DNA of 12,319 nt from Solirubrobacterales bacterium (GTDB lineage Bacteria > Actinomycetota > Thermoleophilia > Solirubrobacterales > Solirubrobacteraceae): positions 1-12,319 of the forward strand of contig JACDAP010000153.1 in assembly GCA_013695395.1 (NCBI GenBank), written 5' to 3'. The position numbers and the translations under genes are program-made. Each line of letters begins with the position of its first letter. Within the stretch, counting starts at the first letter, position 1. Shown piece after piece: positions 560 through 6,432 of the stretch. Under the pieces are notes generated by a model. It worked only from the letters and a program-made list of their open reading frames with translations. It did no database searches and was not told the origin of the DNA.

Positions 560-566
560 CCGCGGT

Positions 567-580
567 CGAACGCCCGTTCG
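567..580. promoter_or_regulatory. Putative LexA/SOS box upstream of lhr
   Basis: CGAACGCCCGTTCG is a perfect CGAAC-N4-GTTCG inverted repeat, the core of the Gram-positive/actinobacterial LexA operator. The flanking T at 566 also fits the mycobacterial TCGAAC-N4-GTTCGA consensus; the opposite flank at 581 is T rather than A. It ends 7 bases before the TACGCT hexamer (588-593) and 20 bases before the lhr ATG, so bound LexA would cover the spacer of the putative promoter. I found no second match to this pattern elsewhere in the window. LexA itself is not encoded here, so the assignment rests on motif and position. Confidence 0.75.
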
Positions 581-587
581 TCCCGGG

Positions 588-593
588 TACGCT
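588..593 (+). promoter_or_regulatory. Putative -10 element of lhr (leaderless type)
   Basis: TACGCT matches the actinobacterial TANNNT -10 pattern and is followed by 7 bases and then the ATG at 601. That spacing puts the transcription start at or next to the A of the ATG, which implies a leaderless mRNA. No Shine-Dalgarno sequence precedes the ATG, in keeping with this. A convincing -35 was not seen. The same GGTACGCT octamer at the same distance precedes the FAD oxidase gene on the other strand. Confidence 0.55.
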
Positions 594-600
594 GAACGGC

Positions 601-5043
<4,443 letters not shown>

Positions 5044-5135: not shown

Positions 5136-5954
5136 TCACCGTGGTCGAGCGAGGAGATGCGCGTGCGGCGGGGCGTCGCGGGCTGGGCCCTGACCGTCCA
5201 GGCGCTCGGCGAGGTAGCCCGCGGCAGCGAGCAGGTCGCAGACCTCCGCCGCGGTGTCGTGCAGTTCGATGACGAGCACCGGGCCGTGGGAGGCGAGCAG
5301 CTCTCGGCCCCCCCGGAGCACGTCGGCCTCGGAGCCCTCGACGTCGAGCTTGACCACGTCTGGCGGCCTCGCTCCGCCGGACAGCGCGGCGTCGAGCGTG
5401 GTGACGGAGACCTCCGTCACCCGGGTGCCCGCGACGTTGCCCCGCGAGGCGAGGTGGGACCAGCTCGCGTCCTCGCAGACGAGCAGCTCCTCGCTGCCGA
5501 CCGCAGCACCGACAGCCTCGCTGCGTACCTCCACCCGGGCCTCGAGCCCGGAGCGGAGCGCCGCCTCCCGGGCCAGCTCGGCCACCGCGGTCACGGGTTC
5601 CCACGCCACCACACGGCCCGCCTCGCCGACGAGCCGCGCCCCGAGCAGGCTGAAGAAGCCGACGTTCGCGCCGACGTCCCAGAGCACGCCGCCCTCCGGC
5701 AGGCTGCGACGCAGGGCCTCCTGCACCGGAACCTCGAGCTCGCCCCGGAGCAGCTGCCGGGTGTGCGCGTGCCCGGGTGGGAGCGCCCGGGCCGGGAAAC
5801 GCAGGCCGAGCGCGAGCCCGCCGACCACCCCGACCTCCCCACGGGCGAACAGGCGGGCGAGCCGCGCCCCCGCCGGGTGCCGGGTGGCCAGGAGCGCGAG
5901 CTGCGTGCGGTCGCTGCGGCCGTGCGCGTCGCGCGGATCCTCGTCGGTCACCAC
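5136..5954 (-). CDS. FkbM-family SAM-dependent methyltransferase
   Basis: The 272-residue product has the class I SAM-binding motif LWDVGANVGFFSLLG (91-105), the acidic residue ending strand 2 in VVAWEP (E119) and the FkbM signature VVKLDVEGSEADVLRGG (200-216), then VLVIELHD (226-233). FkbM-type enzymes usually O-methylate sugars or polyketide-like acceptors, but no acceptor can be inferred here. I chose GTG at 5954 because GAGG lies 8 nt upstream and because longer versions would run through the divergently transcribed Nudix gene; GTG 5951 is an alternative. The first 70 residues are not recognisable and are Arg/Leu/Ala-rich. It stands alone, with no glycosyltransferase or other glycan gene adjacent, and ends tail-to-tail with lhr. 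Confidence 0.87.
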   Translation of the reverse strand: MVTDEDPRDAHGRSDRTQLALLATRHPAGARLARLFARGEVGVVGGLALGLRFPARALPPGHAHTRQLLRGELEVPVQEALRRSLPEGGVLWDVGANVGFFSLLGARLVGEAGRVVAWEPVTAVAELAREAALRSGLEARVEVRSEAVGAAVGSEELLVCEDASWSHLASRGNVAGTRVTEVSVTTLDAALSGGARPPDVVKLDVEGSEADVLRGGRELLASHGPVLVIELHDTAAEVCDLLAAAGYLAERLDGQGPARDAPPHAHLLARPR

Positions 5955-6015
5955 CGCCCGAGCCTCGCAGACGCGGCGCGCACCCGTGATCCGCCCGCCC
6001 CCGCAAGCTGCTGGA

Positions 6016-6432
6016 ATGCACCGGGTGCCCGAGTTCGACCAGCACGGACGCGTCCTCGCCGCCGGCGGCGTGATCCTCCACGGTGGCCGCGTCTGCGTCA
6101 TCCACCGCCCCCGGTATGAGGACTGGTCGCTGCCCAAGGGCAAGCTCGACGCGGGCGAGGACTTCCAGACGGGCGCGCTCCGCGAGGTCTGGGAGGAGAC
6201 GGGCCTGACCGCCACCTGCGGCGACGAGCTCACCCCGCACGAGTACGTCGACCGCAAGCACCGCCCGAAGCTCGTGCGCTGGTGGCGGATGACGATCGAC
6301 GCGGACACGCCGTTCGTGGTCAACGACGAGGTCGACGAGCGACGCTGGGTCACGCCCGGGGAGGCCGAGCAGCTGCTCGACTACGAGCACGACCGGGCCC
6401 TCGTGCGCGAGGCGGTCGGCGCGACCGGGTGA
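6016..6432 (+). CDS. Nudix hydrolase, MutT/MutT1-like
   Basis: The 138-residue product contains a complete Nudix box: G42, E48, REVWEETG 56-63, matching GX5EX7REUXEEXGU. It is preceded by AAGGVILHGGRVCVIHRPRYEDWSLPKGKLD (from residue 16), of which VIHRPRYEDWSLPKGK strongly resembles the Nudix half of mycobacterial MutT1. MutT1 enzymes hydrolyse 8-oxo-(d)GTP and diadenosine polyphosphates. The C-terminal histidine-phosphatase domain of MutT1 is absent here; the protein ends after one domain. A role in cleaning the nucleotide pool fits the surrounding repair genes, but Nudix substrate cannot be read from sequence. It is divergent from the methyltransferase with a 61-bp gap in which I saw no clear promoter. 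It ends with a CGGTCG-GCG-CGACCG hairpin (6413-6427) inside the coding sequence, 9 bp from the convergent neighbour's stop. Confidence 0.9.
   Translation: MHRVPEFDQHGRVLAAGGVILHGGRVCVIHRPRYEDWSLPKGKLDAGEDFQTGALREVWEETGLTATCGDELTPHEYVDRKHRPKLVRWWRMTIDADTPFVVNDEVDERRWVTPGEAEQLLDYEHDRALVREAVGATG

Follow-up and report, generated by a model that had tools for sequence, protein, structure and literature searches.

In mycobacteria, Lhr guards the cell against interstrand crosslinks, and the induction of the lhr-nei2 operon by DNA damage is reported to depend on PafBC and to be independent of LexA and RecA (PMC11323726). The PafBC regulon includes lhr by name (PMC8922275), and the mycobacterial PafBC motif is described as tTGTCRgtg-N8-TAnnnT (PMC5656591). 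The LexA operator of Streptomyces venezuelae is reported as tCGAAC-N4-GNNCGa, and the main text of this account of the Streptomyces LexA regulon does not contain the word lhr (PMC9380542). For Solirubrobacteraceae, the matches listed for lhr, LexA, SOS box, Solirubrobacter and Conexibacter included no study of lhr regulation by LexA. A precedent for LexA repression of lhr comes from Myxococcus xanthus, a member of a different phylum. In that species, lhr (MXAN_0997) is reported to be negatively regulated by LexA (PMC12288472), and its likeness to the locus described here concerns this reported regulation.

The DNA analysed is a stretch of 12,319 nt from a soil actinobacterium of the Solirubrobacteraceae (hereafter the window), in which lhr is preceded by a predicted LexA operator. 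As in the mycobacterial lhr-nei2 operon, the gene encodes an Lhr helicase tied to DNA repair. The mycobacterial operon, however, is reported to be under PafBC control (PMC11323726), whereas the present locus has a LexA box, an opposite-strand FkbM-type methyltransferase gene and, among the frames submitted to Pfam, no nei2-type match. The earlier note on this DNA had drawn on the mycobacterial damage response as an argument for LexA control, but that response is reported to be driven by PafBC without LexA and therefore lends no support to LexA at this locus.

The lhr locus and its predicted operator

The following features surround the box:

1-399, + strand: 3' end of a uracil-DNA glycosylase (UDG) superfamily gene (Pfam UDG, E 1.4e-10)
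458-558, + strand: between UDG and lhr, remnant of what resembles a response-regulator receiver gene (frame DGIEVCRRIPELTPPVSARAVILSATTEA-stop; identity assigned by eye)
567-580, + strand: predicted LexA operator (SOS box), CGAACGCCCGTTCG, a perfect 5-bp dyad with a 4-bp centre
588-593, + strand: TACGCT, -10 element of a leaderless promoter, at -13; TANNNT kept in relatives
601-603, + strand: ATG, lhr start codon and predicted transcription start (from tblastn of lhr N-termini and the -10 spacing)
601-5043, + strand: lhr, encoding a full-length Lhr helicase (1480 aa; Lhr core and C-terminal winged-helix domains)
5139-6353, opposite strand to lhr: FkbM-type methyltransferase gene, profile-matched

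The Lhr protein matched positions 14-1535 of the 1538 in profile NF007284 with 1350.9 bits, below the cut-off of 1496, and Pfam identified WH_Lhr, WH2, WH3, WH4_Lhr and DEAD_assoc domains. Beyond the methyltransferase gene comes a NUDIX gene in the + orientation, and no nei2-type match was obtained among the window frames given to Pfam. With an opposite-strand neighbour and no nei2-type partner, lhr may be transcribed alone. Upstream, a full 131-aa ORF with residues matching the response-regulator remnant occupies the equivalent place in the nearest relative (L014, 2051-2446). Of 80 loci in which the DNA preceding lhr extended for 1200 nt or more, 30 had a UDG gene no further than 1500 nt upstream. 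Among the box-bearing loci it was 6 of 8, a number too small for judging a link between box and UDG.

The inverted repeat CGAAC-GCCC-GTTCG at 567-580 agrees with the Gram-positive LexA core CGAAC-N4-GTTCG at all 10 consensus positions. Read with its flanks (T-CGAAC-GCCC-GTTCG-T), it agrees at 11 of 12 positions with the mycobacterial form TCGAAC-N4-GTTCGA, and both counts bear out what the earlier note had reported. The box spans approximately -34 to -21 relative to the lhr start codon and overlaps the lhr promoter, ending 7 nt before TACGCT and 20 nt before the ATG, with 7 nt between these two elements, just as the TACGCT-N7-ATG arrangement had been described. It had also been called the only such box in the window, and a scan allowing up to two mismatches agrees, giving this single exact match and 12 further sites that all carry two mismatches. 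The total of 13 is unremarkable, with a mean of 9.21 among shuffled sequences and 13 reached in 26 of 200 shuffles. Taken with the genomic and comparative evidence below, the site at 567-580 is very probably an operator of the genome's own LexA, placed on a leaderless lhr promoter.

LexA and its sites in the genome

The draft genome comprises 637 contigs and 3.25 Mb and is approximately 87 % complete. It has genes for both RecA and LexA. The LexA protein has the DNA-binding (PF01726) and S24 protease (PF00717) domains, is intact by its family score, which exceeds the TIGR00498 cut-off, and contains an Ala-Gly site plus Ser and Lys, which we take to be the cleavage-type site and the protease residues, respectively.

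Exact CGAAC-N4-GTTCG sites numbered 12 in the 3.25 Mb, while the reversed-pattern control gave none. When one mismatch was allowed, 217 sites were found as against 124 for the control. This shrinking of the excess means that only exact sites are informative by themselves, and the one-mismatch scan, with a control more than half as high, was dropped as evidence. Nine of the 12 exact sites adjoin likely gene starts:

lexA: TIGR00498, 220.7 bits, cut-off 110.95
radA: profile score above cut-off
dinB, DNA polymerase IV: one model above cut-off
dnaE2-type error-prone polymerase gene: 500-aa fragment, below cut-off
Rv2578c-type radical-SAM gene: 395 bits, below the cut-off of 430
lhr: 567-580
L010: gene without Pfam match, its start HTH-like by eye
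L008: divergent pair of an S4-domain gene and an unknown gene
L009: unknown ORF

The remaining three are inside ORFs (a methyltransferase gene, GAPDH and an unnamed ORF). The one in the methyltransferase gene (L002) repeats the lhr 14-mer letter for letter, so an exact match can arise where no function is apparent, which counts against taking every exact match as functional. Among 61 genomes, the present one included, the reversed control was usually below the exact count, and it equalled or exceeded that count in five (G011, G022, G030, G031, G040).

The earlier note had proposed checking the consensus against the operators of lexA and recA in this genome. Both follow it, lexA exactly and recA with one outer mismatch in the upstream box CGAACACCCGTTCC. 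The actinobacterial LexA regulons of S. venezuelae and mycobacteria share the operator consensus found here (PMC9380542). In this genome, lexA, recA, the dnaE2-type gene and dinB all have the box. Unlike the A/T-containing centres at lexA and dnaE2, the centre at lhr consists of G+C only, a point that weighs against the operator reading. The outer T and A of the mycobacterial form were discarded as support since this genome's sites lack them; T before and A after the box occur together in none of seven (lexA, radical-SAM, dnaE2-type, radA, L010, dinB, L008). At the dnaE2-type and radical-SAM genes (L003, L005; contigs C168, C212), the box runs into the likely start codon or lies directly against it, and LexA would therefore cover the transcript start there.

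The lhr promoter and its box in relatives

Loci with lhr were taken from the best 80 of 377 contigs of relatives, from 60 relatives and from 146 family genomes, of which 114 had an lhr match at the threshold used. The 204 loci provided 200 upstream regions (none from L245, L020, L079 and L087), of which 148 were distinct. The lhr matches of G057 and G059 were left out, as were those of G061, G111, G139 and G150, which start within the gene or at the end of a contig.

Comparison of these regions strongly supports the leaderless lhr promoter that the earlier note had read from the window. Of the 62 rows whose aligned first codon is a start codon, 59 had TANNNT between -16 and -11 (0-2 for seven control hexamers). 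When any possible in-frame start of lhr was accepted, the hexamer preceded it by 11-16 nt in 124 of 146 (0-7 for the controls). The conserved form of the -10 element is TAnnCTcg and a -35 element was not detectable in the collected regions. Among 114 box-less lhr promoters, no column upstream of position -3 from the -10 element exceeded 0.15 bits. The wide retention of TANNNT and this lack of further conserved columns indicate that the lhr promoter of the order is probably leaderless and consists of a -10 element only. Apart from the -10 element, nothing but the LexA box was detected at it.

A PafBC-type activator could nevertheless be the main control of lhr, as in mycobacteria, with the LexA box secondary. 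This is compatible with a LexA operator at 567-580 but appears unlikely. In its favour are the PafBC dependence reported for mycobacterial lhr-nei2 (PMC11323726) and a PafBC-like protein with two WYL domains, found in this genome and, across the family, in 142 of 146. The featureless DNA upstream of the -10 element in box-less promoters, where a PafBC motif of the family itself was sought as conserved columns, argues against it, as does the behaviour of the mycobacterial motif, although this may not be the motif of the Solirubrobacteraceae. As a candidate element at lhr the motif was rejected, being not clearly enriched in 105 rows over 60 shuffled motifs: up to two mismatches gave 2 of 105 rows (shuffled mean 0.32, maximum 3) and up to three gave 5 of 105 (shuffled mean 4.2, maximum 12). 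The two best rows carried two mismatches each, and the window was outside the 25 best of the 105. In six relatives, the two-WYL gene shares a contig with lhr, at a distance of approximately 5.5 to 22 kb (G003:C98, G005:C423, G014:C1, G062:C1, G035:C1, G007:C1), while in the present draft it is on another contig (C448) than lhr.

The LexA box recurs at lhr. With at most one mismatch, it was detected within 100 nt upstream in 15 of the 148 distinct regions of relatives (16 of 149 rows counting the window), nine times exactly. By comparison, 29 permuted palindromes of the same composition, scored over -100 to 0 of the aligned lhr start, had a mean of 0.41 and a maximum of 3, with no exact match for any of the 29. 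At up to two mismatches the excess was weak (26 of 148 vs a control mean of 7.55 and maximum of 21). For conservation in close relatives, to which the earlier note had looked, the outcome is mixed: the recurrence is real and far above the control, but it is patchy. The nearest relative (Lhr 91 % identical) carries GGAACACCCGTTCG at -32, with one outer mismatch, while the second nearest (L016/G003, Lhr 90 % identical) has no box at lhr. By genus, the box was present in five of six rows of g22, five of six of g19 (all five at -35), two of seven of the window's own genus (window excluded), one of three of g21, one of six of g12 and one of 26 of g25. No lhr box was found in the remaining listed genera, in 16 rows from other families of the order or in 26 rows without a genome handle. 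An identical copy of the window's 14-mer stands at -35 of lhr in L246, which belongs to a different genus. Of the named species, Conexibacter arvalis (L068) carries the box, and Solirubrobacter phytolaccae (L021) has none at up to two mismatches.

A tree of lhr, reconstructed by a quick method from 148 rows (the window and 147 relatives; L064, with a short frame, was excluded from the tree only), requires at least nine changes in the box pattern, gains and losses pooled. The window falls in a set of three rows with a support of 100, in which the nearest relative has the box and the other row does not.

The geometry of the boxes is also repeated. All 16 have an R-N-N-Y centre, a property not used in their selection, although related rows are not independent. 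Between the end of the box and the TANNNT that follows there are 6 nt in seven rows, 7 nt in the window, 8, 9 and 1 nt once each, 20 nt in four and 49 nt in one, so that gaps of 6, 7 or 8 nt account for 9 of 16 rows and the 20 nt gap for 4 of 16. In 15 of 16 cases the box is at most 20 nt from a hexamer of the -10 type, so that bound LexA would lie over the footprint of the polymerase. The count includes L153, whose TANNNT near the box is at -64, far from the aligned start, and is not the hexamer preceding it. The box of L097 (at -86, with an inner mismatch, the next TANNNT being 49 nt away) is probably due to chance and was likewise kept in all counts.

Among the 106 family genomes with an lhr upstream region (window excluded), the 15 box-bearing ones were all among the 88 in which lexA was found, and the box was absent from the 18 others (Fisher P 0.07; some of the genomes are incomplete). 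In the family as a whole, lexA was not matched at E 1e-30 in 27 of 146 genomes, including 5 of the 71 with a completeness of 90 % or more and a contamination of 5 % or less. Loss of LexA is possible in these genomes.

A chance palindrome in G+C-rich intergenic DNA, without LexA function at lhr, would account for the copy in the methyltransferase gene, the three of 12 exact sites within ORFs, the absence of a box at lhr in most relatives and the five genomes with a reversed control that is not low. It is improbable in view of the zero reversed-pattern count in this genome, the promoter position of the box, the near-identical box of the nearest relative at -32 and the recurrence with repeated geometry in two genera. 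The perfect 5-bp inverted repeat, with its 4-nt loop and its place beyond the end of UDG, might suggest an RNA hairpin or terminator of that gene instead of a protein site, but this is very improbable, as no T-run follows the dyad, the dyad recurs with the LexA consensus and R-N-N-Y centre, and two box-bearing loci (L097, L246) have no UDG found upstream.

Proposed control of lhr and its distribution

We infer LexA binding, repression and induction at lhr from the operator and its position. The lhr promoter would consist of the TACGCT -10 element, lack a recognisable -35 and direct transcription from the start codon or from a position right beside it. A LexA dimer on the box would occupy the spacer and the -35 zone (approximately -34 to -21) and block RNA polymerase. 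Upon DNA damage, RecA filaments on single-stranded DNA would stimulate LexA self-cleavage, the operator would be vacated and lhr would be transcribed as a leaderless mRNA. Thus lhr is probably switched on by DNA damage, a prediction that follows from the LexA-like site in its promoter.

The best reading is that the operator is a known kind of element and that its target, lhr, appears to have been recruited in patches within the Solirubrobacteraceae, perhaps repeatedly. A more specific history can be proposed tentatively, and we consider it a real possibility that stops short of being probable: from an ancestral state with a bare leaderless -10 element, lhr would have been captured by LexA several times independently in the family, with the operator growing between the -35 and -10 positions or over the -35, and the damage response run by PafBC in mycobacteria would have been repeatedly rewired to SOS.

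The interest of the locus is in this patchy, perhaps repeated, recruitment of lhr into the SOS response and in the contrast with mycobacteria. Control of lhr seems to differ between lineages, though Lhr protects mycobacteria against interstrand crosslinks (PMC11323726), and carrying the mycobacterial picture over to lhr of the Solirubrobacteraceae would mislead. A small leaderless promoter is conserved at the gene; some species have added a LexA operator to it, while close relatives lack one, and species with and without the box form natural pairs for probing the effect of SOS control on Lhr.
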